A stretch of 64,000 bases of DNA. Source: Chloroflexota bacterium. Lineage in GTDB: Bacteria > Chloroflexota > Dehalococcoidia > Lucifugimonadales > Lucifugimonadaceae. A program made the position numbers and the translations under genes. Positions 35,881 to 51,769 of this stretch are shown here, one piece after another (the first letter of the stretch is position 1; the number at the start of each line of letters is the position of its first letter). Location of the stretch: the NCBI GenBank assembly GCA_022564545.1, contig JADFLG010000003.1:1-64000 (forward strand), given 5' to 3'. A model generated the notes under the pieces. The model did no database searches. It had not been told where the DNA came from and was given only the letters and a program-made list of their open reading frames with translations.

Positions 35881-36561
35881 CTAGATCAGACCGCGACGCT
35901 GAGCTTCGGACACAGCGTGGGCGCGGTTGCTTACGCCCATCGCATCGAAAACATGCCTTAGTTCGCGTTTCACTGTCGCAGGACTCAGGAACAGGTTTTC
36001 AGCAATCGCCTTGGTAGTCTCGCCACCTGCGACCATCCGCAACACCTTCGCCTGTCGCTCGGTCAGGCTCTGGCTATCGGAGGTTTGATTCTGAATCTGA
36101 CGGTATCGGTCTACAAGCAAAGCATTCAGCGCCGGCGAGAGCGGAGAACCACCGCTAGCAGCGTCTCTTACTGCTCGTACCAGCTCTTCCTGCGAGGCCC
36201 GCTTCAGCAGGTAACCAACGGCACCAGCTTCGAGGGCCAGGCCGAGATGGGTGTCGCCGAACGAACTGAGCATCACAACGCGAATGTGCGGATACTTCTC
36301 CATCACGCCGCGGGTGGTTTCGATACCGTCAATTCCTGGCAACATGACATCGCACATAACCACGTCTGCAAGACCCAGTGCGGGGTCGTTGATAGCGTCC
36401 TCGCCGGTGCTGGACTCGCCGATAATCGTTGCCTGACCATCCAGTTCTAACAGGCGCCTGGTGCCCTCACGAACGACCTGGTGGTCTTCAATCAGGAAGA
36501 CTTTGACGGGTAGTGGAGGCTCTTGAGGTGACTCTACTATTGAATAGTCGCGCTGGTACAT
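35881..36561 (-). CDS. NarL/FixJ-family response regulator
   Basis: VFLIEDHQVVREGTRRLL, CDVMLPGIDGIETTRGVM, GAVGYLLKRASQEELVRAV, LTERQAKVLRMVAGGETTKAIAENLFLSPATVKRELRHVFDAMGV. Confidence 0.92.
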   Translation of the reverse strand: MYQRDYSIVESPQEPPLPVKVFLIEDHQVVREGTRRLLELDGQATIIGESSTGEDAINDPALGLADVVMCDVMLPGIDGIETTRGVMEKYPHIRVVMLSSFGDTHLGLALEAGAVGYLLKRASQEELVRAVRDAASGGSPLSPALNALLVDRYRQIQNQTSDSQSLTERQAKVLRMVAGGETTKAIAENLFLSPATVKRELRHVFDAMGVSNRAHAVSEAQRRGLI

Positions 36562-36625: not shown

Positions 36626-38278
36626 CTAACTGGCTTTTCTTGCCGTTTTCATCTGGGTCAGTCCCGCATGCAGGTTCGGTCTTCCCGACATATCAGTTTC
36701 GGTCAGGCGTTGCTCTTTGAGGACCGCGAACCTGTCCATGCTTTGCCTGAGTTCTTCTAGGCTGAAGGGTTTGTGGAGAACTTCCACGCGTGTCTGCTCC
36801 AAGAACGAGCGCGTATCAGGCGAAACAGTGTCACCGGTGATAAACAACACCCTGCCCGCCAGGTCGGGCCTCAGCACCTCAAGGCTGCGGAATACTTCTG
36901 AGCCTCCCAGACCCGGCATTCGGACGTCGAGGAGGATAGCGTCGTATTCGTTGAGGAACAGTGTCCGGAGCGCTTCGGCGCCATCGTTGACGACATCGAC
37001 ATCGTGGCCCTGCGCGGTCAGTGCGCGATTGAGCAGCGTTGTGACTGAGCGTTCGTCGTCGACTGCAAGGACCCTCAGCCTGGTGTAGCTGTTGGGCAAT
37101 GCCGGTACGGTTGGCGATAGAATTTTCGTCTCTTCCGGGACGTCGACAATTGGGATTTCCACGACGAACGTGGTTCCGCGGCCAAGTGCGCTCTCAACCC
37201 GAATAGCGCCGCCGTGGTCTTCAACGATGCCTTTGCAGATCGAAAGACCCAGGCCGGTCCCTTTGCCGACCGGTTTCGTCGTGAAGAACGGATCAAAGAC
37301 CTTCCTCTGATTGGCCTCCGAAATGCCGGGACCATCGTCGGTGATGCTTACCCTGATCATGCCCTGGTCGTGAACGACGCCAACTGTGATCGTCCCATGA
37401 CCGGCTTTTTCACCAATTGCGTGGATGCTGTTTCCGATCAAGTTCATGAAAACTTGTTCCATCCGGTGAGAATCGGCCAGTGTCAGCGGTGTTTCAGCGT
37501 CGAAGTAGGTCACGACTTCGATGTTGTTCACCCGGCATTCGTAGTCACGCAGATCGAGGATCTTTTGCAGCGACTCGTTGATGTTCAAGATTTGCGAGGC
37601 AGCGCCGGAGTCGGACGCTCGTGCGAAGGTAAGCAGGTTGTCGACAATCCGGCCGGCGCGCTCGGCTTCATCGGCGATCGATTCAAGGTCTCGTTTGAGC
37701 GTATCGTCGGTTGCCTGGCGCAATGCCAGCTGCGAGAAGCCGAGTACCGCTGTCAGCGGGTTGTTCAGTTCATGTGCAACGCCGGCCGCCATCTCGCCGA
37801 CAGAGACAAGGCGGCTGTTTGCGATCATTCGGTCCTCGCGGTCGGCCCCTTCCGTGACGTCGTCGATAAGCAGCAGGAACCTGGTCTTCAGTTCGATATC
37901 CAAATGGGGTGTCACGGTAACGTTGTAGTTGGCCTCGGGGTCGTTCGGATTTTCAGCCGGGACCACAAGTTCGCGTGTTTCGACTGGCTTCCCGGTAATC
38001 GACGTCTGCTTGAAGAGGTTCCTGAGGCCCGGCGGGTCGAAATGGTCGGATAGACGGTCACCAACGTTGCTCTTGCCGCACATGCGGTCGAAAACGGAAT
38101 TGGTCAAGATGATGCGTCGCCGTCCATCGAGCGCCGCCATTGCCTGTGGGATTGACGTGATGAGAGCCCGGACGAGGTCTTTCTGGCCCGCCGATTTAGA
38201 GCGCGACTTGAAGACAGAAATATTCCTGCTCTGTGGTTTTGGGCCCTTGCGCCCGGTAGCGCCCGGCACAGCCGCCAT
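36626..38278 (-). CDS. Hybrid sensor histidine kinase (PAS-HisKA-HATPase_c-REC)
   Basis: VGEMAAGVAHELNNPLTAVLGFSQLALR, QVFMNLIGNSIHAIGEKAG, ITDDGPGISEANQRKVFDPFFTTKPVGKGTGLGLSICKGIVEDHGG, C-terminal REC DAILLDVRMPGLGGSEVFRSL; TAATG overlap with the upstream small gene. Confidence 0.93.
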   Translation of the reverse strand: MAAVPGATGRKGPKPQSRNISVFKSRSKSAGQKDLVRALITSIPQAMAALDGRRRIILTNSVFDRMCGKSNVGDRLSDHFDPPGLRNLFKQTSITGKPVETRELVVPAENPNDPEANYNVTVTPHLDIELKTRFLLLIDDVTEGADREDRMIANSRLVSVGEMAAGVAHELNNPLTAVLGFSQLALRQATDDTLKRDLESIADEAERAGRIVDNLLTFARASDSGAASQILNINESLQKILDLRDYECRVNNIEVVTYFDAETPLTLADSHRMEQVFMNLIGNSIHAIGEKAGHGTITVGVVHDQGMIRVSITDDGPGISEANQRKVFDPFFTTKPVGKGTGLGLSICKGIVEDHGGAIRVESALGRGTTFVVEIPIVDVPEETKILSPTVPALPNSYTRLRVLAVDDERSVTTLLNRALTAQGHDVDVVNDGAEALRTLFLNEYDAILLDVRMPGLGGSEVFRSLEVLRPDLAGRVLFITGDTVSPDTRSFLEQTRVEVLHKPFSLEELRQSMDRFAVLKEQRLTETDMSGRPNLHAGLTQMKTARKAS

Positions 38279-38536: not shown

Positions 38537-40111
38537 TCAGGTTGCGGGTGCCGAAATCGTGGCGAAGACCATTCTTGATGCCGGTGGGATCAGCGTCAAC
38601 ATCAGGCCCGATACAATCATCATCACACCAAGTTGGTATCCGGCACGCATACGGTGTCCACCACTGGCGGCCCATGGAGCCACCGCATTTGCGATGGTAA
38701 AAACCACCACTACGGTAATGATGATTAAGTTCAGGAACTCAAAATTTACGTTGGCAAACGTGTTGAACCCGCTCGAGTTAGCGATGTCGGGTATGTTTGC
38801 TCCTGAAGCGGATGGGTCGACGGTATCCGTATCCAATAGCATGCTCGAGGCGAATAGTTGCATCACATTTACGATGAAAACCAGGAGCCCGACCATTGCT
38901 GCATGAAGCGGAATCGTAAGGTATCCGAACGTCTGGGCCACGAGGGCGCGCTTCTCCCGGAGAACGCTGATTTCGGCCGCGAAGAATGCGGCGGTCTTGC
39001 CCGTGATCAGCGGATTGCCACCGATTGTGAGAGCGTCCCAGAAAATGTTGATGGTCCGCTCAATCAGTTCGGAGCCGGTTTCGTAGATGAGGTGGTCCCA
39101 GCACCGGTTGGGCGTGATGCCTGAACGTATCCGGACTTCCAATCGCCGGAAGTAGGGCTCCAGCGACCCAAGAGACCGCCGGTCGATTTTGCTCAGGGCG
39201 TCGCTCACGGTCGTTCCAATCGCGTCGGTTACACCGCCGAGCATCCGGGTCGCCGTCGCGATGTCGGCGTCGATTCTGAGAAGCCGTTTCGAGTCGCGGT
39301 TCATGAGGAAACCAGACGGCAACAGGCTCAGTCCGAGAACTATGAAACCAATGCCCAGCTGGCCCTGTGTGATGGCGATCGCCGCCAGGCCCAGTACAAA
39401 TCCCGCCGGCACCAGGTACTTGAACAGTTTTATGGCTACCATCTGGTTCGGGGCGCTCAGGCCCGCAGTCCGCGTGTAGCTTTCCTTGGGAGCCGCAAGA
39501 TAGATAGTCCAACTGCCGATGATCGCTATCATCATGGTGACCATGCCCGTCATCAGAATCATTCCGGGCCCGAGGCTGTAGATCATCATCGAAATGATCG
39601 AGACCACGACAATCAGGCCAGCTGATACGATCATGGCCGAGTAGGCATCGGTCCACTTGCGCAGCGATTCGATGTTTGTCTCGTACGTGGCGCGGTACAA
39701 CTCGGCCATCACGGCCGCTTCGCGGGTAAGGAACTCTTCTTCGTCTTCACCGGATGAGAGAGAACCCGACATTCTCAGGAGAAGCGTCGAGACCTCATGT
39801 TCCTTCGTGCGGTCGGCAACCGCGCGGCAGGCTTCCGAGTAGTCGTACTTCAGCCGGTTCACAAGCGTGTTGATATCGACGAAGTACGGGGTAGTCGACA
39901 GGTTTAAGCGAGCGGCGTAACTGAACATGACATCGCGCGAGGCCTTGGCTGTGGCCATCGACGCCATGTAAGAGATGTGTGTAAAGAGGTCGAAGGCGAG
40001 CGTTTTCTTGTCGACTTTGCGCCTGTTTGCGATCGCGCTTAGCGCGTTGTCTTCAACTGCCTTCTTGGCTTTGTCGCCGAACCCCAGACGGGAAATAATG
40101 CCCAGTGCCAT
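38537..40111 (-). CDS. arlJ: Archaellum platform membrane protein ArlJ (FlaJ), T2SF/TadC-related
   Basis: 524-aa polytopic protein directly downstream of arlI; SLESLRKWTDAYSAMIVSAGLIVVVSIISMMIYSLGPGMILMTGMV and R-rich cytoplasmic loops typical of FlaJ/TadC. Confidence 0.85.
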   Translation of the reverse strand: MALGIISRLGFGDKAKKAVEDNALSAIANRRKVDKKTLAFDLFTHISYMASMATAKASRDVMFSYAARLNLSTTPYFVDINTLVNRLKYDYSEACRAVADRTKEHEVSTLLLRMSGSLSSGEDEEEFLTREAAVMAELYRATYETNIESLRKWTDAYSAMIVSAGLIVVVSIISMMIYSLGPGMILMTGMVTMMIAIIGSWTIYLAAPKESYTRTAGLSAPNQMVAIKLFKYLVPAGFVLGLAAIAITQGQLGIGFIVLGLSLLPSGFLMNRDSKRLLRIDADIATATRMLGGVTDAIGTTVSDALSKIDRRSLGSLEPYFRRLEVRIRSGITPNRCWDHLIYETGSELIERTINIFWDALTIGGNPLITGKTAAFFAAEISVLREKRALVAQTFGYLTIPLHAAMVGLLVFIVNVMQLFASSMLLDTDTVDPSASGANIPDIANSSGFNTFANVNFEFLNLIIITVVVVFTIANAVAPWAASGGHRMRAGYQLGVMMIVSGLMLTLIPPASRMVFATISAPAT

Positions 40112-40114
40112 TGC

Positions 40115-42058
40115 CTAAAACACTCCGTCTTTGATGGCTTTGGCGATTGTGCGGTAGACCTCCTGGTAACCCTCAAGGCCCGATGCGGCCAGCTTTTCCA
40201 GGATCCTGGCACGGCGCTTTACGAGCGAGTAGATCTGGCGTCGTCGCGCAGGTGGGTATCCACGGGCCGGCGCGATGATCTGTTCGAGGAGATAACTGTT
40301 GTTAAAGCCGGTAAATTCGAATGTGTCGGTAACCGGGTCCCACTGAAACACTTCGACGAATGAGAACGCATCGGCCGCCGAATCGTAGTTCACGATTTCG
40401 TTTATCGAGATGGCCCGCCTGCCCACGGATCCGTCTGGCAGCCGGACGGCAACCTGCATCACCGCGATGTTCAGGTTGTCGATGTAGTTCTTGGGCACCA
40501 GGATCGGGTCACCGACGAGACGCTGGATAAGCTTCTGGACTGAAGACGCGTGGAAGGTGGCCATGACCGGGTGACCGGTCTGCATGGCCTGGAATGCGAT
40601 AAGGCCTTCTTCACCGCGGATCTCACCAATGATGATGAATTCGGGGCGTTGCCGCAGTGCGGCCCGCAGAAGGTCGAACATTCCGACGCCCGAATCGGTC
40701 TCGCCGGATTTCGGCTTTCGGGTCACTTCCTTGATCCAGTTCTGGTGCGGTACGTTCACCTCGGCCGTGTCTTCAATGGACACGATCTTGGCGTTCGGTG
40801 GGATGAACGTGCAGAGCGCGTTCATAAGCGTCGTTTTGCCCGACGCAGTTTCACCGGACACGAACATGTTCATGCCGTCTTCGATCATGATCGAGAGATA
40901 TGCAGCCATCTCCCAATTCAGGGATCTCCACTTGCAGAGCTGGATGATGCTGATCGGGTCTTCTGAGAACTTACGAATTGTGTAGTTCGTGCCCCGCAGC
41001 GAAACGTCCTGGCCGTAGACGATGTTGATACGTGAGCCATCGGGAAGCGAAGCGTCGACTACTGGCTGCCGGAATGTAACCGGCTTCTTGATGCGTTCCG
41101 ACAACCTCAGGACGTGTTCGTCGAGTTCGGCGTGTGTCTTATACCCGAACGAGGCCTTCATCGACAAGAAAATCTTGTGCTCGATGAATATCTGACCGAC
41201 GCCACTGCACGAAATATCTTCGATGTGGTGATCGTTGATCATCGGCTGCAGCACGCCCAGGCCGACTTTTTCACGGACCATCGAATACTTGATTCCTTCA
41301 AGGTCGTCTTCGTTCAGGCCGTACTTTCCGGCTATGTCAAGCGTGCTCTTCGACCCGCCGCCGAAGAGTTTCACGAGCGGGGCTAGCAGGCTCGACTTTT
41401 TCTTTGGCCTGGCAACTGCCGTTTCGGTTTTCTCAGCTACAGCGACTGCAGTTGAATTAGATTCGCCCCCTGCGTCTGTTCCGGCCGAATCTTCCGCACC
41501 TTCTGGGAGAGCAGGCGGTTCGTCTTCGGCCTTTTTAATCTCTTCACCGAGAAAGCCCTTCGGTAATGCGAGGATCTCATCGATCTCCATCTCGACGGGT
41601 TGTTTGAAGATTTGAGCAAGCACCCAGCGCAAAATTCCGGCGAGCTGCTGATCTCCTTCGGCGGCTTCAAGTTCGTCGGTGTATTCGATCAGGCCTTCTT
41701 CAATGTCGGCCATGATCTGAGGGAACTTCGGGTGCTCTGCCGATGGTTCGATCGCTATGTACCAGTCGCGAATGCCCTCGGGGTCGGCGAAAACGTGGAT
41801 GAACGTTCCACCTGCATGCGCCTTGTAAATGATGTTCGGACTATCCTCGTCGCCATCGCTTTTTTCGAGTTCCTCGTGGTACGTGGGGATGCCGATTTCT
41901 GCGATCGGCAGGCTATGCAGGTAACGGAGCAGGAATGAGTTTTCGAGTGCGGCTTCCCTGAGCGCGGTCGGGAGTTGCTGGACGAGCTCGCAACTTTCGC
42001 TATCGCACTCGTGATCGCGGGTATCGATCACATTGAACGGGAGTTCGAATACTGCCAC
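40115..42058 (-). CDS. arlI: Archaellum assembly/rotation ATPase ArlI (FlaI), type II/IV secretion ATPase superfamily
   Basis: FVSGETASGKTTLMNALCTFIPPNAKIVSIEDTAEVNVPHQNWIKEVTR, FIIIGEIRGEEGLIAFQAMQTGHPVMATFHASSVQKLIQRLVGDPILVPKNYIDNLNIAV. Confidence 0.92.
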   Translation of the reverse strand: MAVFELPFNVIDTRDHECDSESCELVQQLPTALREAALENSFLLRYLHSLPIAEIGIPTYHEELEKSDGDEDSPNIIYKAHAGGTFIHVFADPEGIRDWYIAIEPSAEHPKFPQIMADIEEGLIEYTDELEAAEGDQQLAGILRWVLAQIFKQPVEMEIDEILALPKGFLGEEIKKAEDEPPALPEGAEDSAGTDAGGESNSTAVAVAEKTETAVARPKKKSSLLAPLVKLFGGGSKSTLDIAGKYGLNEDDLEGIKYSMVREKVGLGVLQPMINDHHIEDISCSGVGQIFIEHKIFLSMKASFGYKTHAELDEHVLRLSERIKKPVTFRQPVVDASLPDGSRINIVYGQDVSLRGTNYTIRKFSEDPISIIQLCKWRSLNWEMAAYLSIMIEDGMNMFVSGETASGKTTLMNALCTFIPPNAKIVSIEDTAEVNVPHQNWIKEVTRKPKSGETDSGVGMFDLLRAALRQRPEFIIIGEIRGEEGLIAFQAMQTGHPVMATFHASSVQKLIQRLVGDPILVPKNYIDNLNIAVMQVAVRLPDGSVGRRAISINEIVNYDSAADAFSFVEVFQWDPVTDTFEFTGFNNSYLLEQIIAPARGYPPARRRQIYSLVKRRARILEKLAASGLEGYQEVYRTIAKAIKDGVF

Positions 42059-42066
42059 TTAGAAAC

Positions 42067-42774
42067 CTATGCCGATGCCTTGGAGATCGGGATAATTTTC
42101 ATGCCGAGGTCCGGCTCGATATCGAACGTGACGATATTTCCTGTGGTCTTCGTAGCGCCGCGGATTTTCGCCACCTCGAGAATTTTCACGAGCTGGTCGC
42201 CAACTTCCTCCGTGCGGAGGGTCAGGTGGGCGTCACACATTGAACGGAGCCGCGCCAGCGTTGTGTCGTCGAAGGCGTAGGTAGACGCCACGTTGATGAT
42301 GGTGCGTGCCTCGCCGACCAGCACCTGGCACGCTTCGAAGTAGGCGGCGGTGTCTTCCCATGAGCCACGTGTGACGAACGTCGTGAGCGAATCGACAACG
42401 ATCAGGTCTACGCGGGGGCCGTGGGCGATATTTCGGAGTATGGTGTCGAAGACCTGTTTCGGCGTGAGCTTGTTCTTACCGACAGATATGGGGTAGATCT
42501 TGAGCCGGCCCAGCAGTAGAAATTGCATCACCTCGAGGTTCAGGCTGCTCATCTGCCGCAGGAGGCTCTTGGTGGTGTTCTCAGTGGTAAACAGGGTTAC
42601 CGTCAGGCCGGCCTGGAGCGAACCCCACATGAGTTGCTGGGAAACCACGGATTTTCCGGAGTCGGACTGTCCTTCGAGCAGCGTGAGAGACCCGAGTGGA
42701 ATTCCTCCACCCATCTTTTTGTCCAGTTCGGGTTGACCCGTGGATACGCTTACTAGACCTTCTGTGCCTGCCAT
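42067..42774 (-). CDS. arlH: Archaellum regulator ATPase-fold protein ArlH (FlaH), KaiC/RecA-like
   Basis: LGSLTLLEGQSDSGKSVVSQQLMWGSLQAGLTVTLFTTENTTKSLLRQMSSLNLEVMQFLLLGRLKIYPIS; DLIVVDSLTTFVTRG. Confidence 0.9.
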   Translation of the reverse strand: MAGTEGLVSVSTGQPELDKKMGGGIPLGSLTLLEGQSDSGKSVVSQQLMWGSLQAGLTVTLFTTENTTKSLLRQMSSLNLEVMQFLLLGRLKIYPISVGKNKLTPKQVFDTILRNIAHGPRVDLIVVDSLTTFVTRGSWEDTAAYFEACQVLVGEARTIINVASTYAFDDTTLARLRSMCDAHLTLRTEEVGDQLVKILEVAKIRGATKTTGNIVTFDIEPDLGMKIIPISKASA

Positions 42775-42826: not shown

Positions 42827-43357
42827 TTAATTGGTGAAAATCGCGGTGACCGTCACACCCTGCTCTACGGCCAGTGTCACCGTGTTTGACGAGCTGGTGG
42901 CCGCTGCGGGCCCCAGTTCGGCTCTGATAATGAATTCTTCACCGGGATTCACGATTCCGGGTTGGTATACCTCCGGGTCCAGGGTAGCGGCATCCTCATA
43001 AATTCCGGTGAGTGTCCACTCCCCCGCAGAAGGAGTCGCAGAGGTCGTGTATGTGAGCCATTCGATTTGCAGGCCACTTCCCGATGCTCCTTCGTACCAG
43101 ACAATGAGGTCCCAGTCGCTAATCTGGCGCAGTTGCGACTGCCCACTGTTTGCGACTGTGAAATCGAGCCTGGAGTTCGATATCACCGAGGTCCCCAACG
43201 ACGAGACACTCGTGCGAGATATCTCGCCAGTCTTATCACGCACGGCCTTTACGCTGACGGTGATCTTGTCCTGCGAGTTGACAGAGCTGGTCGCATAACC
43301 GGCCATGGCAGCCAGGATGATCATTACGGCGAAAAGGGCCACTATAAGACTGGCCAT
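42827..43357 (-). CDS. ArlF/ArlG-like archaellum stator/pilin-like protein, copy 1
   Basis: N-terminal hydrophobic helix MASLIVALFAVMIILAAMAGYATSSV then beta-rich domain (LDFTVANSGQSQLRQISDWDLIVWYE); between arlH and a paralogous gene. Confidence 0.75.
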   Translation of the reverse strand: MASLIVALFAVMIILAAMAGYATSSVNSQDKITVSVKAVRDKTGEISRTSVSSLGTSVISNSRLDFTVANSGQSQLRQISDWDLIVWYEGASGSGLQIEWLTYTTSATPSAGEWTLTGIYEDAATLDPEVYQPGIVNPGEEFIIRAELGPAAATSSSNTVTLAVEQGVTVTAIFTN

Positions 43358-43407: not shown

Positions 43408-43941
43408 TCAGCCATCGAAAAAGATGGTTCCGGTCAGGCCAGTTGGCGTGGTGACGGTAACTTCGCCGGTCGTCGAAGCCTCGACACGTGGGTTGAGACG
43501 GACCCTCATCAGCATCTCTTCCAGGGGGTTGAGCCTGCCTGGTTCGATCAACTCAGCCACAGAGTTGTCGTAATCGATCCAGAACGAGGCGTCGGTCCAC
43601 GTGTTGTCCGATTCGGTCGCCGAATACGAAAGGTGGATAACGGTTTCGCCAGGTGCGCCGCGTTGTTCGTACCGTACCGTCACATCCCAATCTTCGAACG
43701 ACCCCAGGCTCCGGCGCCCATCGTTGGTGATCACGATGTCTACCCGGGTGGAGCCTGCATTGGTATACGCAGTTGTCGATACCAGGCCGATGGACGTTTC
43801 CAGCTCGGCCACCAGTCGTTCATTGCTAACCGCAAGAGACAACGTCCTGTCGCTGCCTGAATCCAGGACGGTATTGACCGCGGTCATCGTTGAACCGATA
43901 ACCAGGAACAGGGCGATTAGTGAAGTTAAAGCTGTGCCCAT
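43408..43941 (-). CDS. ArlF/ArlG-like archaellum stator/pilin-like protein, copy 2
   Basis: MGTALTSLIALFLVIGSTMTAVNTVLDSGSDR plus VDIVITNDGRRSLGSFEDWDVTVRYE; shares N.G...L....DWD..V.YE and P..NP.EE...R..L with copy 1. Confidence 0.75.
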   Translation of the reverse strand: MGTALTSLIALFLVIGSTMTAVNTVLDSGSDRTLSLAVSNERLVAELETSIGLVSTTAYTNAGSTRVDIVITNDGRRSLGSFEDWDVTVRYEQRGAPGETVIHLSYSATESDNTWTDASFWIDYDNSVAELIEPGRLNPLEEMLMRVRLNPRVEASTTGEVTVTTPTGLTGTIFFDG

Positions 43942-44000: not shown

Positions 44001-44627
44001 CTACATCGAGAAGTAGCTCTCCGCAGCGACTCCGTTCGGTGTAATTACCCGTATGAAGTAGGTACCGGTCGGTTTGGTGCATGCGCCGGGGCAGCCATCG
44101 TCGAACTTGATGTCGAATTTGACCGTCGTGGCGATGCCCCATTCCGTCGCGCCACCCTCAAGCGTGTACGACCACTGGGGGTAGCCGCCGCCAGCATCGT
44201 CTTCGTGCGGGATCCGCTCGATGCCACCCGGCTGACCGAAGAAGATGTCGACCTCGGCGATGGCGGGAATTCGGATGTTGCCTACGTTTTTGCTCCACAC
44301 GTAGAAGTCGAACAACGAGTTGGAGTTTGTATCGACCCAGCTGCTTGCGGAGTCGAGTTCTCCGACTGATTGGACGACGGTAATATTCGTTCTTATTCGC
44401 TCGTCGACCGTGCCAGAGGCAGAAGCGACTGCACTGGAACTGCGAGTTACAGCCGGGTAAACGGCGTTCATCACGGCGACCGCGGCTATGATGCCGGCGA
44501 TCGTGAGCAGCATGGTCGTAATTGCTTTATCGATGGCGGTCTCTCCTGGGGCTGGACGTGTGTGGCAATTGCCCTGGTTTCCCTGGCTGTTGCCAGGCGC
44601 GGAATCCCCGGCCAACTTGCACTTCAT
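44001..44627 (-). CDS. Archaellin-superfamily (ArlF/G-like) protein; start uncertain, conserved region begins at DKAITTMLLTIAGII
   Basis: DKAITTMLLTIAGIIAAVAVMNAVYPAVTRSSSAVASASGTVDERIRTNITVVQ then beta domain FDFYVWSKNVGNIRIPAIAEVDIFFG. Confidence 0.72.
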   Translation of the reverse strand: MKCKLAGDSAPGNSQGNQGNCHTRPAPGETAIDKAITTMLLTIAGIIAAVAVMNAVYPAVTRSSSAVASASGTVDERIRTNITVVQSVGELDSASSWVDTNSNSLFDFYVWSKNVGNIRIPAIAEVDIFFGQPGGIERIPHEDDAGGGYPQWSYTLEGGATEWGIATTVKFDIKFDDGCPGACTKPTGTYFIRVITPNGVAAESYFSM

Positions 44628-44721: not shown

Positions 44722-45702
44722 CTACGCGATCAAGCGGTCGAGTGGATCGTCTTCGACATCCATCAACATGCTCAGGAGTCGGTTGCTGTCGGTGCCGGCG
44801 CTGGTGTCCAGAACGCCTTCCATGCGCACCATCGCCGATACGATTTCGCGCACCGGTACCTGCACGGAAGGATCTTCTTCCGTAAGTGCCATCAGGTGAT
44901 GGAGGACTACCCGGGTCGAAGGTGCAATGCGTCCCGCGGCCTCGAATGCGTCGAGCATTATTTCCGTTCGGTTCGCACCGAGCCGATCGGTGGTGACGGC
45001 GACCCAGCGTACCAGCCCGGCCATCGTGAGGACGTCGAAGTTCGCCGTGACCGGCGCCAGGGCGCTATCAGCAGCCCCATCAGCCCCGTCAACGGCGTCG
45101 GTGCCGTCCTGTGCCTTTCCGGAGCCTTCGAGTTCGGGCTCTTGTCCTGTATTTGCCGGTTCCTCATCCAGCTTGAATTCTTCCTCGATTTCTTCAGGAA
45201 TCTCTTCCTCTTCTTCGAAGTATTCGTCCGGATCGGACACCGCTGACGGCATTCCCCCGCCGCCCCCGCCGTCATCGATGATTTCTTCCTCGACGTAGCC
45301 GCCGTCGGGAATTTCCTCGATGATTTCGTCAACAGGGTCGTCCGCGGCGTCATCAAGGTGTTCTTCGACTGATTCCCCGTCCCCGTCTGCGCTTTCGAGG
45401 TCTTCGTCCCCGTCGCCTTCTCCGTCGTCACCGTCGCCTTCGCTTACAGCCCCGGCGGCCCCGTCGGCCCCGGCAGTTCCTTCGGCCCCGGCAGGGCCAC
45501 TGCTGCCACCGCCCATGAGGTCGTCAAACTCGATCTCGTCCTCGTCTGTCAGGGCATCGTCGACCGCGTTGAACGGGTTGGTCACGTCTAAAATGTGCTC
45601 GCGGATATCGAGCAGCGTTTGCTGGACCTGGTTCTTGATGAGATTAAGCTCGTCCTCGGCGGTCTTCAGACCAGCTTTTATGCGAGCGTCTTCAGCAGCC
45701 AA
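44722..45702 (-). CDS. ArlC/D/E-like archaellum accessory protein with long acidic low-complexity linker (TTG start)
   Basis: N-terminal EDELNLIKNQVQQTLLDIREHILDVTNPF; Asp/Glu/Gly-rich middle; C-terminal LTMAGLVRWVAVTTDRLGANRTEIMLDAFEAAGRIAPSTRVVLHHLM resembles the ArlD/E domain. Confidence 0.75.
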   Translation of the reverse strand: MAAEDARIKAGLKTAEDELNLIKNQVQQTLLDIREHILDVTNPFNAVDDALTDEDEIEFDDLMGGGSSGPAGAEGTAGADGAAGAVSEGDGDDGEGDGDEDLESADGDGESVEEHLDDAADDPVDEIIEEIPDGGYVEEEIIDDGGGGGGMPSAVSDPDEYFEEEEEIPEEIEEEFKLDEEPANTGQEPELEGSGKAQDGTDAVDGADGAADSALAPVTANFDVLTMAGLVRWVAVTTDRLGANRTEIMLDAFEAAGRIAPSTRVVLHHLMALTEEDPSVQVPVREIVSAMVRMEGVLDTSAGTDSNRLLSMLMDVEDDPLDRLIA

Positions 45703-45704
45703 TG

Positions 45705-45836
45705 CTAGAACTCATCCCCTGGTGAGAGAACCCTTGCGCGAATGTCGGCGATCAACGGGAACACCAATTCTTTAAGAAGCCGTATCTCTTCTTCCAGATT
45801 TTTCAGACGCTGTTCCAGGTCCATTTCTTCGGCCAT
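45705..45836 (-). CDS. 43-aa coiled-coil mini-protein resembling the ArlC/D/E N-terminus (not in the supplied ORF track)
   Basis: Manual translation MAEEMDLEQRLKNLEEEIRLLKELVFPLIADIRARVLSPGDEF*; ends 2 nt before the next gene's TTG start. Confidence 0.65.
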   Translation of the reverse strand: MAEEMDLEQRLKNLEEEIRLLKELVFPLIADIRARVLSPGDEF

Positions 45837-45979
45837 GGTGCTTGCGTCTCCCGGGTATCCTGTATCTATGTTTCGTAAACGGTGTTGATTTAGGTTCAGC
45901 TAAAAGCGAATGTTTCGCCAATTCAGTCCTGGTTGCCGGTAGCTGACCAGGAGCACCGAATTGTTACGAGGCTGAGTCT

Positions 45980-46696
45980 TTACTTGAGGTCCATGACCGT
46001 GTCGAGCCTGGGTGGTGAGGTGCGTTGGATTGTCAGCACTGCGCCGCTCTCTGGTTTGACTTCGAGGGTGAACTGGTCGTTTGTACCAATGAGTGTGCCG
46101 GAATCCTGCAGGATTCCTGATGCGCCGTTGACGTCTACAGCGGCATACTCGCCAACACTATCGTCGGATCCTATTGCAGTACCTGTATTGCGTTCGAGCA
46201 ACCAGACGGTGATTTCCGCCTTTTCGCCCTCTTCCAGCAAGCTGTCACCGTTGTCGTTACCTACCCAGTCAAGTGTCCACGGGACATCTGGCAAATGCTG
46301 GTTCTTGTCTGTGAACGAGATGACTGTCCTGTACTCGGCGTTAGATACGATGTCCGGGTCAGTACCGTCCTCGCCTTCAGTGTAAGGCGCTGTCAGGTCG
46401 ACAGGCTCACCTGCAATGGCGTTAGATACGAAGAACGACACTTTGTAAAGTGTCTCTGTGGAACCAACCTTGCCCTTGTAGGCTATGACTGACCCTCGTG
46501 GTTCGATGGAACTCTTGGCTTCTTCGAGGCCTGCGAACACCGTCTCTTTGGACCGCTCGGAGGCGAATATGCCTGTCGAGAGGACCGTGAAAGCGAATAC
46601 GGACGCCACGACCACGAATGCAATGAGAATGATTGCGGTCTCGAGACCGGTGATTCCCTTTTCGTGCATTGGCGCACCGAACTTGTGCGTAAACAT
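45980..46696 (-). CDS. arlB: Archaellin 5 (operon-proximal)
   Basis: HEKGITGLETAIILIAFVVVASVFAFTVLSTGIFASERSKETVFAGLEEAKSSIEPRGSVIA...VKPESGAVLTIQRTSPPRLDTVMDLK; SD AGGAGA. Confidence 0.9.
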   Translation of the reverse strand: MFTHKFGAPMHEKGITGLETAIILIAFVVVASVFAFTVLSTGIFASERSKETVFAGLEEAKSSIEPRGSVIAYKGKVGSTETLYKVSFFVSNAIAGEPVDLTAPYTEGEDGTDPDIVSNAEYRTVISFTDKNQHLPDVPWTLDWVGNDNGDSLLEEGEKAEITVWLLERNTGTAIGSDDSVGEYAAVDVNGASGILQDSGTLIGTNDQFTLEVKPESGAVLTIQRTSPPRLDTVMDLK

Positions 46697-46842
46697 TTAC
46701 GTGTCTCCTGGTTTCCGCCTCCAAGGGGCGTGGCCTGAATGGTCTTCCTCATTTGCTGTCCCGGTGGCGACATACGACCGTATTGCCCACCGGGTAATTT
46801 CGGCCACACGTTCAATGTATTTGGAAACCGGATGGTCAAACA

Positions 46843-46857
46843 TTGGGGGCACCCCAA
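46843..46857. promoter_or_regulatory. Dyad element upstream of archaellin 5
   Basis: TTGGGGGCACCCCAA perfect inverted repeat, 147 nt upstream of ATG. Confidence 0.6.
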
Positions 46858-46893
46858 CGCCGGGGGTGGGCAAACCCACACAGAACACGCACG

Positions 46894-46927
46894 AAAACAG
46901 CCACCTGGCTTCCCAGGTGGCTGTTTT
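46894..46927. terminator. Intrinsic terminator of archaellin 4
   Basis: AAAACAGCCACCTGGCTTCCCAGGTGGCTGTTTT. Confidence 0.85.
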
Positions 46928-46953
46928 GGCAGTGCTTTTATGTTCGACCGAAC

Positions 46954-47676
46954 CTACTTGAGGTCCATGATCGTGTCGAGCCTCGGCGGAGCAAACCGCT
47001 GAATCGTCAGCACCGCGCCGCTTTCCGGCTTCATCTCGATGGTGAACTGGTCGTTCGTCGTGATTGCCGTATCGGTCGAAAGCATTCCCCGGGCGCCGTT
47101 AGTGTCGGCAGACGGGTAGTACTTTGCGCCACCTGTGGCTGTCGGGTCGGAGGCCTGGGTCAAGAAGTCACGTGTGAGCAGCCATACTGTGATCTCGGCC
47201 TTCTCGCCTACTTCCAGGAGGTTGTCAGAGTTGTTGTTTCCAATCCATGAAACCGTCCATGGGACGTCAGACAGGAACTGGTTTTTGTCGATGTACGAGA
47301 TAACTGTCCTGTACTCGGCGTTCGCGACGATGTCCGGGTCGGTGTTCGAGTCGTCCGTATCGTACGGAGGAGTCAGGTCGACCGGCTCACCGGCAATGGC
47401 GTTAGAGACGACAAAGGACAGCTTGTAGATGGTCTGGTTAGTGCCATCGTGCCCTTTATATGCGATAACCGAACCGCGGGGTTCGATCGAGCTCTTCGCT
47501 TCTTCCAGACCCGCGTAAACCGTCTCTTTGGACCGCTCGGAGGCGAATATGCCCGTCGAGAGGACCGTGAAAGCGAACACGGACGCCACGACCACGAATG
47601 CAATGAGAATGATCGCGGTCTCAAGACCGGTGATTCCCTTTTCGTGGCCTGGCGCACCGAACTTGTGCGTAATCAT
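46954..47676 (-). CDS. arlB: Archaellin 4
   Basis: HEKGITGLETAIILIAFVVVASVFAFTVLSTGIFASERSKETVYAGLEEAKSS...EMKPESGAVLTIQRFAPPRLDTIMDLK. Confidence 0.9.
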   Translation of the reverse strand: MITHKFGAPGHEKGITGLETAIILIAFVVVASVFAFTVLSTGIFASERSKETVYAGLEEAKSSIEPRGSVIAYKGHDGTNQTIYKLSFVVSNAIAGEPVDLTPPYDTDDSNTDPDIVANAEYRTVISYIDKNQFLSDVPWTVSWIGNNNSDNLLEVGEKAEITVWLLTRDFLTQASDPTATGGAKYYPSADTNGARGMLSTDTAITTNDQFTIEMKPESGAVLTIQRFAPPRLDTIMDLK

Positions 47677-47825
47677 TAACGTGTCTCCTAATTTCCGCCT
47701 TCACAGGGCGGGGCCAGGTCGATCTTCTTCATTACTGCCACCATGCGCGTAACTCTGGCCTTGCGCTTCCCGATGGTCGTTGCAGCTCTGTACTCAAAGC
47801 TATGCCCGCATATTTCCAGAAGGTA

Positions 47826-47840
47826 TTGGGGTCACTCCAA
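47826..47840. promoter_or_regulatory. Dyad element upstream of archaellin 4
   Basis: TTGGGGTCACTCCAA, 150 nt upstream of ATG. Confidence 0.6.
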
Positions 47841-47876
47841 CTCCGTGGGTCGGATAGCCCACACACGGGGATAAGC

Positions 47877-47908
47877 AAAACGGCCACCGTAACGCCGGTG
47901 GCCGTTTT
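47877..47908. terminator. Intrinsic terminator of archaellin 3
   Basis: AAAACGGCCACCGTAACGCCGGTGGCCGTTTT. Confidence 0.85.
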
Positions 47909-47931
47909 GCTGGTTGTGTCGAGACCTGGAT

Positions 47932-48654
47932 TTACTTGAGGTCCATGATCGTGTCGAGCCTCGGCGGCGCAAACCGCTGAATCGTCAGCACTGCGCCACT
48001 TTCCGGCTTCATCTGGACCGTGAACTGATCGTTGGTGGTCAGGAACGTATCGGTCGACAGCAGGCCCCGTGCGCCATTGGCGTCGGCACCGGTGTAGTAA
48101 TCAACGCCGTTGCTGGCCGTTGCTATGAAGGTGTTGTCGCGCCTGAGGAGCCAGACCGAGATCTCGGCCTTCTCGCCCACTTCCAGGAGGTTGTCGGAGT
48201 TGTTGTTGCCAACCCAGGAAACGGTCCACGGGACATCCGCGAGATACTGGTTCTTGTCGATGTACGAGATTACCGTCCTGTACTCAGCGCCAGAGACGAT
48301 GTTGGGATCGGTGCCCGTGTCGCTTGCCGTATAGGGCGGGGTCAGGTCGACCGGTTCACCGGCAATGGCGTTGGAAACTACAAACGACAGCTTGTAGATG
48401 GTGTCGGTGGCAGACGTTGTGTCGATCCGGCCTTTGTAGGCGATAACCGAACCGCGGGGTTCGATCGAGCTCTTGGCCTCCTCGAGCCCGGCGTAAACCG
48501 TCTCTTTGGACCGCTCGGAGGCGAATATGCCTGTCGAGAGTACCGTGAAAGCGAACACGGACGCCACGACCACGAATGCAATGAGAATGATCGCGGTCTC
48601 AAGACCGGTGATTCCCTTTTCGTGGCTTGGCGCACCGAACTTGTGTGCAAGCAT
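47932..48654 (-). CDS. arlB: Archaellin 3
   Basis: same N-terminal class III signal peptide and C-terminus; VQMKPESGAVLTIQRFAPPRLDTIMDLK. Confidence 0.9.
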   Translation of the reverse strand: MLAHKFGAPSHEKGITGLETAIILIAFVVVASVFAFTVLSTGIFASERSKETVYAGLEEAKSSIEPRGSVIAYKGRIDTTSATDTIYKLSFVVSNAIAGEPVDLTPPYTASDTGTDPNIVSGAEYRTVISYIDKNQYLADVPWTVSWVGNNNSDNLLEVGEKAEISVWLLRRDNTFIATASNGVDYYTGADANGARGLLSTDTFLTTNDQFTVQMKPESGAVLTIQRFAPPRLDTIMDLK

Positions 48655-48806
48655 TATGCGTGTCTCCTACGGTCCCCATTCAAAGGACGGGGCCAGACTG
48701 ATCATCCTCAACACTGCTGCTGTAAGCACGGTCCTGGCATTGAACTTCGCCACGGTCGTTGCAGTTATGTATCTGTCAAGTTATGTCGAACAGGTTTCCC
48801 CTGATA

Positions 48807-48821
48807 TTGGGGACACTCCCA
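48807..48821. promoter_or_regulatory. Dyad element upstream of archaellin 3
   Basis: TTGGGGACACTCCCA, 153 nt upstream of ATG. Confidence 0.55.
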
Positions 48822-48858
48822 CATCGTGGGCCGGACAACCCACACGCGGGTTAATGAG

Positions 48859-48887
48859 AAACAGCCACCGTGGTCCCGGTGGCTGTT
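48859..48887. terminator. Intrinsic terminator of archaellin 2
   Basis: AAACAGCCACCGTGGTCCCGGTGGCTGTT. Confidence 0.8.
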
Positions 48888-48912
48888 GCATTGGCTGTAT
48901 CGATTCCTGGAT

Positions 48913-49644
48913 TTACTTGAGGTCCATGATCGTGTCGAGCCTCGGCGGAGCAAACCGCTGAATCGTCAGCACCGCGCCGCTTTCCGGTTTCATCTCGAGG
49001 GTGAACTGGTCGTTCGTGCCGATAATTGTGTCGGTAGACAGCAGGCCACGGGCGCCGTTTACATCGGCGGCAGCATAGTATTCGACACCGTTGTTGGCGG
49101 TCGGGTCAGTGGCCTGTGCTACGAAGTCGCGCCTGAGGAGCCAGACCGTGATCTCTGCCTTCTCACCCACTTCCAGAAGGTTGTCGGAGTTGTTGTTGCC
49201 AACCCAGGAAACGGTCCACGGCACATCAGAAAAGAACTGGTTCTTGTCGATGTACGAGATAACTGTCCTGTACTCGGCGTTCGCGACGATGTCCGGGTCA
49301 GATCCCGCGTCGTTAGTTGTGTATGGAGGTGTCAGGTCGACCGGTTCACCGGCAATGGCGTTGGAAACTACAAACGACAGCTTGTAGATGGTGTCGGTTG
49401 CCGTCGATGTATCAACCCGGCCTTTGTAGGCGATAACCGAACCGCGTGGTTCGATCGAGCTCTTCGCTTCTTCCAGCCCTGCGTACACCGTTTCCTTTGA
49501 TCGCTCTGAAGCGAAAATACCGGTGGACAGAACGGTAAATGCGAATACGGACGCCACCACCACGAAGGCGATGAGGATAATGGCGGTCTCAAGACCGGTA
49601 ATGCCCTTTTGTGACTCTGCCTTCGCACTCTTTTTGAACAACAT
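48913..49644 (-). CDS. arlB: Archaellin 2 (listed ORF starts 49788; likely start MLFKKSAKAESQKG)
   Basis: SQKGITGLETAIILIAFVVVASVFAFTVLSTGIFASERSKETVYAGLEEAKSS...EMKPESGAVLTIQRFAPPRLDTIMDLK. Confidence 0.9.
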   Translation of the reverse strand: MLFKKSAKAESQKGITGLETAIILIAFVVVASVFAFTVLSTGIFASERSKETVYAGLEEAKSSIEPRGSVIAYKGRVDTSTATDTIYKLSFVVSNAIAGEPVDLTPPYTTNDAGSDPDIVANAEYRTVISYIDKNQFFSDVPWTVSWVGNNNSDNLLEVGEKAEITVWLLRRDFVAQATDPTANNGVEYYAAADVNGARGLLSTDTIIGTNDQFTLEMKPESGAVLTIQRFAPPRLDTIMDLK

Positions 49645-49823
49645 CACTAAGATCTCCCTTTTCTCGGACCTGGTCTCCTGAAGTCCCCCACTGCGTAAAT
49701 GGCTGCATTGCCTCGGCGCGGTGGGTGACATTTCTCCTGCTTCCAAAGTTAGGGGTGGACAGGGTTCTGGTCGGTCGGGTCGGCACACAAACTGCGGTGT
49801 GCTGACACCAATGCGGTTAACGA

Positions 49824-49855
49824 AGCACGACCAGCGGAATTCCGCTGGTCGTGCT
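49824..49855. terminator. Intrinsic terminator of archaellin 1
   Basis: AGCACGACCAGCGGAATTCCGCTGGTCGTGCT. Confidence 0.75.
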
Positions 49856-49878
49856 TGCGATTGCTGAGCAACACCGGG

Positions 49879-50604
49879 CTATTTCAGGTCCATGATGGTG
49901 TCGAGCCGGGGGGGTGCAATCCGCTGAATAGTCAGTACTGCACCGCTGCTCGGTTTTACCTGGAGCGTGAACTGGTCGTTTGCATTGAGGAGCGATCCCG
50001 CCGTTAAAATGCCGCTGGCCCCGTTGACGTCGGCGGTTGTATATTTCGCAACGCCATTATTGTCGGTCGCATTGGTCACGGCGTTGTCGCGCCGTAGCAG
50101 CCACACAGTTACCTCAGCCTTCTCTCCCTGTTCAAGCAGGCTGTCAGAGGAGGACTGCCCCAGAATCTTTACAGTCCACGGAACATCCGACAGGTACTGA
50201 TTCCTGTCCTGGAAAGAGATGATCGTTTTGTACTCGGCGCCACTCGAGATATCTGGATCTGATCCCGAGTCGTCAAATGTGTAGGGCGGCGTCAGGTCGA
50301 CCGGCTCACCGGCAATTGCGTTGCTCAGTACGAACGAAATCTTGTAAATGGAATCTTCGGCCGCACTGGTCCCCGCGCGTCCTGTGAACGCAATCACGCT
50401 TCCGTGAGGTTCGAGAGAGCTCTTGGCTTCCTCCAGACCCGCGTAAACCGTTTCCTTGGACCGTTCGGATGCGAACACGCCGGTCGAAAGGACCGTAAAC
50501 GCGAAGATCGAAGCTACAACGACGAACGCGATCAGGATGATCGCGGTTTCCAGTCCGGTGATTCCGCGCTGCTGGTAGTCAATGCCCAGCTTTCTGTTGC
50601 TCAT
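49879..50604 (-). CDS. arlB: Archaellin 1 (array-distal; listed ORF starts 50679; likely start MSNRKLGIDYQQRG)
   Basis: QQRGITGLETAIILIAFVVVASIFAFTVLSTGVFASERSKETVYAGLEEAKSSLEPHGSVIAF...LQVKPSSGAVLTIQRIAPPRLDTIMDLK. Confidence 0.9.
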   Translation of the reverse strand: MSNRKLGIDYQQRGITGLETAIILIAFVVVASIFAFTVLSTGVFASERSKETVYAGLEEAKSSLEPHGSVIAFTGRAGTSAAEDSIYKISFVLSNAIAGEPVDLTPPYTFDDSGSDPDISSGAEYKTIISFQDRNQYLSDVPWTVKILGQSSSDSLLEQGEKAEVTVWLLRRDNAVTNATDNNGVAKYTTADVNGASGILTAGSLLNANDQFTLQVKPSSGAVLTIQRIAPPRLDTIMDLK

Positions 50605-50753
50605 CTCTGGGATGCTCCTCGAAGTGTTGGCAAGTTCAGGTCCTGTCGCGCCCTGTGCGCAGTTAAGGGGTTTGTGCACGAGAGCGCGCTGGACGTGAAC
50701 GTCCGGTTTCCTGCGTTATTGCGAACTTTACTTAGAGAATCTCGGAACCGGCA

Positions 50754-50768
50754 TTGGGAGCACACCAA
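50754..50768. promoter_or_regulatory. Dyad element upstream of archaellin 1
   Basis: TTGGGAGCACACCAA, 150 nt upstream of ATG. Confidence 0.55.
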
Positions 50769-51040: not shown

Positions 51041-51769
51041 ATGCAAACGATATCTATTATCATCGCGGACGATCACGAATTGACTCGTGAAAGCCTGGCC
51101 GTTCTTCTGGACCGGGAACCTGGAATCGAAGTGGTTGGCGTCGCTGCCGACGGGCGAAGCGCAATTTCGATGGCCAAGTCTCTGCAACCGACAGTCGCCA
51201 TTCTTGATGTCAACCTTCCGTTGATCAACGGCATCCAGGTCGCTCGCCAAATACGTGTGGACAGCCCGCATACCGGCCTTGTCATGTTGTCTAACCACGA
51301 CCGTGGTGAGTACTTGAAGGAGTTCATGCGCGACGATTCGGCGGGCAAGGCTTTCTTGCTCAAAGCAACACTGCGCAACACCCGTGACATCGTTCGCGCA
51401 ATCGAGGATGTGACTGCGGGTCGAACCGTACTCGACCCTGTAATGGTGTCGAAACTAACTTCCGACGATGGACTCAGGCTTAGCGGCGCGCTGAAGAACC
51501 TCAGCCCGCGAGAACTCCAGGTCCTGGGCCTGATGGCAAGGGCACACTCGAACCGGGCGATCGCCGAGGCGCTGTTCATTCAGCCCCGGACAGTTGAGCA
51601 CCACATCAGCAGCGTGCTGGCAAAACTCGGGTTCAATTCGAACGGCGAGAAACATGGCCGTGTGTTCGCCATCCTCACTTACCTGGAATCTACCGGCCAA
51701 CTGCCGGTGCACGAGTCCGAGCTTGAACATGGAACGGACTTTGTTTCGCCGATTCAGATGACTGCATAG
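51041..51769 (+). CDS. NarL/LuxR-family response regulator divergent from the archaellin array
   Basis: SIIIADDHELTRESLAVLLDREPGIEVVGVAADG; LSPRELQVLGLMARAHSNRAIAEALFIQPRTVEHHISSVLAKLGF. Confidence 0.92.
   Translation: MQTISIIIADDHELTRESLAVLLDREPGIEVVGVAADGRSAISMAKSLQPTVAILDVNLPLINGIQVARQIRVDSPHTGLVMLSNHDRGEYLKEFMRDDSAGKAFLLKATLRNTRDIVRAIEDVTAGRTVLDPVMVSKLTSDDGLRLSGALKNLSPRELQVLGLMARAHSNRAIAEALFIQPRTVEHHISSVLAKLGFNSNGEKHGRVFAILTYLESTGQLPVHESELEHGTDFVSPIQMTA

Follow-up and report, generated by a model that had tools for sequence, protein, structure and literature searches.

What does a bacterium do with five archaellin genes lying one behind another? The question arises from a stretch of 64,000 nucleotides (positions 1 to 64,000 of contig JADFLG010000003.1, assembly GCA_022564545.1; hereafter the window), in which a complete archaellum operon follows these genes. 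The bacterium belongs to SAR202 (Chloroflexota) and to the genus of Ca. Lucifugimonas. The closed 3.09 Mb chromosome of Ca. Lucifugimonas marina JH1073 (G013) is listed in the same genus, and its ArlH and that of the window are 92% identical. A first-pass annotation had placed the array in an archaeal frame, which is incorrect: the organism is a member of Chloroflexota, and its genus was already known for tandem archaellins (PMC10444878). The array as such is therefore known in close relatives, and what we add is comparative, namely the per-gene control units, the orthology and conversion of the slots, and the selection on them. We read the locus as a filament array of a bacterial archaellum in which each archaellin gene is most likely transcribed as a unit of its own, providing several differently controlled subunits, and put the probability of this reading at roughly 0.6. 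In the following lines, the second coordinate is the start and the first the end of each open reading frame (ORF) call.

49879..50604, minus strand: archaellin A1, slot 1; 241 amino acids (aa); PF01917 above cut-off; one ortholog per species in six species
48913..49644, minus strand: archaellin A2, slot 2; 243 aa; PF01917; slot-2 promoter and leader with a slot-3-type body
47932..48654, minus strand: archaellin A3; 240 aa; PF01917
46954..47676, minus strand: archaellin A4; 240 aa; PF01917; matches the bacterial archaellin structure 9i5h (E=7e-39)
45980..46696, minus strand: archaellin A5, last slot; 238 aa; PF01917; last-slot promoter with the body of the relatives' penultimate slot

The five ORFs lie where the first-pass annotation had put them, with start spacings of 960, 990, 978 and 980 nucleotides. 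The segments that it had described as shared, [KR]GITGLETAIILIAFVVVAS[VI]FAFTVLSTG[IV]FASERSKET and PPRLDT[IV]MDLK, recur in all five proteins, and the central region does differ between copies, the most divergent block being a loop at residues ~167–200. All five match Arch_flagellin (PF01917) above the curated cut-off (76.6–83.5 bits versus 29.5), with profile positions 1–162 covered. Each carries a class III signal peptide, [KR]G before and ITGLETAI after the predicted cleavage point, i.e., a basic residue and G ahead of ITGLE, with E at +5. A D-x-LLE-x-GE motif, read at the motif level in looking for an outer-domain metal site, is also common to the five. The closest solved structure by sequence is the archaellin of Litorilinea aerophila (Chloroflexota; 9i5h), the mature chain of which starts at the same I as the predicted cleavage point. 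A Chloroflexota archaellum was shown to be functional in 2025 (PMC12488501), and the L. aerophila system described there shares with the window the bacterial archaellum and the arlGF order. The SAR202 archaellins differ from 9i5h in an extra variable stretch of ~35–40 residues (about 167–202) and in the five-copy array. An AlphaFold model built from 17 array archaellins had a mean predicted local distance difference test (pLDDT) score of 45 and was not used. No bacterial flagellin was found in the host genome, which encodes ten archaellins, five in tandem and five scattered on other contigs, one of the latter truncated by a contig end.

The regions upstream of the array genes contain two classes of box.

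50753..50768, minus strand: class I box of A1, TTGGTGTGCTCCCAAT; exact match to TTGGDGYGNYCCCAAT, kept in six species
49770..49787, minus strand: class II box of A2, TGTGCCGACCCGACCGAC; sole exact match in the genome, kept in slot 2 of five species
48806..48821, minus strand: class I box of A3, one mismatch
47825..47840, minus strand: class I box of A4
46842..46857, minus strand: class I box of A5

A box near TTGGDGYGNYCCCAAT thus precedes slots 1 and 3–5, and a different one, TGTGYCGACCCRACCGAC, precedes slot 2. Exact matches to TTGGDGYGNYCCCAAT occur in the host genome at three array genes only, A3 having its single mismatch, while fewer than 0.1 chance matches per genome are expected (an estimate assuming uniform bases). 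Because the motifs were derived from the array genes, such genome scans test specificity and are not a means of discovery. Independent support comes from the conservation of the boxes between species, despite synonymous sites being near saturation (synonymous differences, pS, 0.6–0.85). A single exact class I box also occurs away from the array, on contig 54 of the related genome G007; it is internal to a long ORF for a membrane protein and was regarded as a chance match. None of the five scattered archaellins (L009, L010, L011, L012, L013) has a class I box; some of them have orthologs elsewhere, such as the C15 type in G005, G007, G012, G013 and G014. In the aligned upstream regions, the box is followed by a TAnnnT motif resembling a −10 element, and AGGAG or a similar Shine–Dalgarno-like sequence stands ahead of most starts.

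At the other end of the genes, inverted repeats follow the stop codons.

49823..49856, minus strand: terminator-like hairpin 3' of A1; perfect inverted repeat, −35 kcal/mol, z −6.8
48860..48887, minus strand: terminator-like hairpin 3' of A2; inverted repeat, folding, compensatory changes between species
47874..47911, minus strand: terminator-like hairpin 3' of A3; inverted repeat, folding, compensatory changes
46894..46927, minus strand: terminator-like hairpin 3' of A4; inverted repeat, folding, compensatory changes
45910..45979, minus strand: weaker hairpin region 3' of A5, ahead of the motor operon; −23.7 kcal/mol, z −2.9

The repeats downstream of A1–A4 are perfect over 11–17 bases and, when folded as RNA, give z-scores of −3.6 to −6.8; their stems comprise 11–16 perfect pairs, whereas none in 1,100 shuffles had more than nine. 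Paired positions covary among the 22 hairpins compared from six species, one position being occupied by GC, CG, TA and AT pairs. An Rfam search of the locus returned only a chance-level match (STnc350, 23.4 bits versus a 60-bit threshold). Taken together, each unit would consist of a promoter with its upstream box, a 5' leader with a Shine–Dalgarno site, the gene and a hairpin terminator.

Several points weigh against this reading. The T-runs 3' of the window hairpins are short (2–4 T in 8 bases), and for this reason the terminator function is something we infer. A consensus scan found no canonical sigma-70 promoter. Conserved upstream sequence could in part reflect descent of the duplicated units, although the cross-species comparison of slot 1 makes descent an unlikely explanation for all of it. 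Finally, cultured SAR202 cells showed no filaments and were described as non-motile (PMC10444878).

The strongest alternative is an archaeal-style operon with one promoter ahead of A1, in which the hairpins between the genes would serve as leaky terminators or stabilize the RNA and so grade downstream output. The genes are colinear, as this requires, and there is a precedent in the arl operon of Pyrococcus furiosus, which likewise has several archaellins with termination signals between the genes; its transcripts begin ahead of arlB0, and intergenic terminators tune them (PMC10665913). The signals of P. furiosus are poly(T), whereas in the window there are hairpins and a box ahead of each gene. 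A pure operon would not need boxes and TAnnnT motifs conserved in front of every gene, nor a separate box class for slot 2, and we consider it unlikely.

Are the five genes then equivalent copies? The slot-1 proteins of six species, one per species, cluster as a clade (100/100) in a tree of 56 archaellins, a result confirmed on DNA. Between A2 and A3, A2 and A4, and A4 and A5, identical silent codons form longer runs than expected (shuffle P 0.001–0.002, passing correction for ten pairs), and the signal is borderline for A3/A4 and A3/A5; A1 gives none. Over the first 30 codons of the mature region, A3 and A4 are 98% identical in DNA, and A5 is 96% identical to both, whereas from codon 60 onward A5 mostly resembles a positional relative in other species. 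These patterns show patchy gene conversion among slots 2–5. In A2 and A5, promoter and body are of different ancestry, as judged by the trees. The upstream region of A2 groups (100/100) with its slot-2 counterparts in four other species, while its body groups with A3, and a slot-2 body clade is rejected (approximately unbiased test, p-AU 0.031). Similarly, the upstream region of A5 groups with the last slot (99/99), while the body groups with the penultimate slot of two relatives (96/90), a last-slot body clade being rejected (p-AU 0.0002). Both p-AU values are somewhat optimistic, since the groups were picked after inspection of the protein tree.

The conversion-like tracts among A2–A5, the near-identical N and C termini and a copy number of between 4 and 6 in those arrays of relatives that look complete would all suit a dosage array, in which equivalent copies homogenized by conversion ensure high expression of one filament protein. 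Against this, slot 1 is a separate lineage without conversion signal, the outer loop diverges and the promoter classes differ, making pure dosage a rather improbable explanation.

All window copies compared with relatives display nonsynonymous differences (pN) of 0.06–0.16 versus pS of 0.59–0.80, and purifying selection on every copy argues against decaying silent copies. The first-pass annotation had named expression of one copy with the others silent and decaying, and collapse of the array in an independent assembly, as outcomes that would speak against it; at the level of sequence neither is seen, every copy being intact and the array being kept in the assemblies of relatives. Its suggestion of several distinct subunits gains support from the slot-1 clade, from the selection on all copies and from the two promoter classes. 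The same observations bear on variation by silent cassettes, with one expressed locus and promoterless donors as in pilE/pilS. Patchwork conversion and the promoter/body discordance of A2 and A5 are in line with such a system. However, all five copies have a start codon, a Shine–Dalgarno-like site, an upstream box and an intact frame, so none is a promoterless or startless donor, and silent cassettes are highly improbable. An assembly artifact, or a collapsed or expanded repeat, might be suspected in an assembly of 195 contigs, yet it is so unlikely as to be negligible, because the same array (5–6 copies, ~0.95–0.99 kb spacing) is present in independently assembled genomes of relatives, the closed JH1073 chromosome among them, and the window copies are only 66–83% identical to each other in DNA.

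We therefore favor separately controlled subunits over a single operon, pure dosage or silent cassettes. If the genes are separate units, the cell can make several similar subunits in controlled proportions, which may be added to one filament or to different filament sections or states. Slot 1, with a class I box and a stable ortholog, and slot 2, with the class II box, may be specialized or differently timed subunits, and slots 3–5 may represent an expandable bulk set. Gene conversion would keep the N-terminal helix (the assembly core) and the C terminus uniform while outer loops differ, and gene bodies would occasionally shift between promoter slots. In archaea, there are precedents both for conditional use of subunits and for two subunits alternating in one filament, the latter in Methanocaldococcus villosus (PMC8821640); M. 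villosus, an archaeon, is a precedent at the level of the filament, whereas the SAR202 array is described here from its genes. A further, tentative possibility, which we hold to be doubtful, is that the promoter slots are fixed and differently regulated and that outer-domain bodies are exchanged among them by recombination.

Tandem archaellins in the genus were reported in 2023, Ca. Lucifugimonas JH545 having six tandem and six scattered copies (PMC10444878). The flaB array of Ca. Lucifugimonas marina resembles that of the window in genus, gene order, about equal spacing and position ahead of flaGFHIJ, and the window differs in having five tandem copies and other promoter/body pairings in A2 and A5. 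The main text of that report does not mention promoters, terminators or gene conversion.

The gene order around the array is largely kept in the genus.

51041..51769, plus strand: LuxR/NarL-type response regulator divergent from A1; PF00072 and PF00196; adjacent in 5/5 relatives checked
45705..45836, minus strand: 43-aa ORF, possibly ArlC-like; 88–93% identity in four relatives, no Pfam match
44722..45702, minus strand: probable ArlD/E-type switch protein, acidic, 326 aa; by position and synteny, no significant family match
44001..44627, minus strand: ArlG stator protein; NCBIfam ArlG E=1e-7, under curated cut-off; PF01917 weak
43408..43941, minus strand: ArlF-like stator protein, copy 1; NCBIfam ArlF E=0.0012, under cut-off
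42827..43357, minus strand: ArlF-like stator protein, copy 2; PF01917 and FlaF_Ig-like, both weak; resembles copy 1
42067..42774, minus strand: ArlH, KaiC-like; NCBIfam FlaH PRK06067, 257.7 bits, cut-off 194
40115..42058, minus strand: ArlI motor ATPase; NCBIfam NF058587, 627 bits, cut-off 550
38537..40111, minus strand: ArlJ platform protein; PF00482 T2SSF, 29.5 bits, cut-off 25.2
36626..38278, minus strand: PAS hybrid histidine kinase; syntenic in the genus
35881..36561, minus strand: LuxR/NarL-type response regulator; PF00072 and PF00196

The response regulator divergent from A1 is a candidate regulator of the upstream boxes. A search for arlCDE found two syntenic ORFs in the expected place, both without family match. 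They are followed by arlG ahead of arlF (the arl2 order) and a second ArlF-like gene, with family scores under the curated cut-offs. No separate gene for ArlF-like copy 1 was detected in G014 and G007, where it may have been lost or have diverged. arlHIJ are linked to the archaellins, contiguous and on the same strand. The only prepilin peptidase found lies outside the locus, a single Peptidase_A24 gene (contig C185, L049:1940-2752) with a bacterial A24_N domain, whereas SAR202 members were described with an archaeal-like PibD (PMC12488501).

Also outside the window, this bacterium without flagellin has a chemotaxis operon, CheA–CheC–CheD–CheB–CheR with an HD-domain gene (L074:6753-13381), and a CheW gene on contig C118. 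Near the operon, a 275-aa protein is encoded (contig C187, L074:5768-6595), beginning MDNGAVLSQDAIDALLN. Its N-terminal peptide (LSQDAIDALLN) is FliM-like, and a stretch resembling a coiled coil and a putative zinc ribbon are also present. The peptide does not vary between the four species aligned and resembles EIDALL, the binding site of FliM for phosphorylated CheY (PMC9126983). Since it has no matches in the PDB or Pfam, the likeness to FliM rests on visual similarity of the motif; a literature search on the motif string returned unrelated papers only. Strong matches were found in six genomes of the genus only, all archaellin-bearing. Chloroflexota lack CheF, and CheY may be connected to the motor by some other route (PMC12488501). 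As neither CheF nor the C-terminal domains of flagellar FliM/FliN were found in the host genome, we propose the 275-aa protein as a candidate for the missing link between CheY and the archaellum, and as a lead to follow.

For the SAR202 archaellum, the comparison distinguishes conserved subunits (slot 1) from exchangeable ones. Should outer-domain bodies indeed move between fixed promoter slots, lineages would alter the outward face of the propeller, against phages or grazers for instance, with regulation and assembly core unchanged. Ca. Lucifugimonas marina is in culture, making the number of subunits per filament directly testable. More generally, a motility filament of archaea has moved into bacteria and has apparently been given bacterial-style gene control, subunit by subunit.

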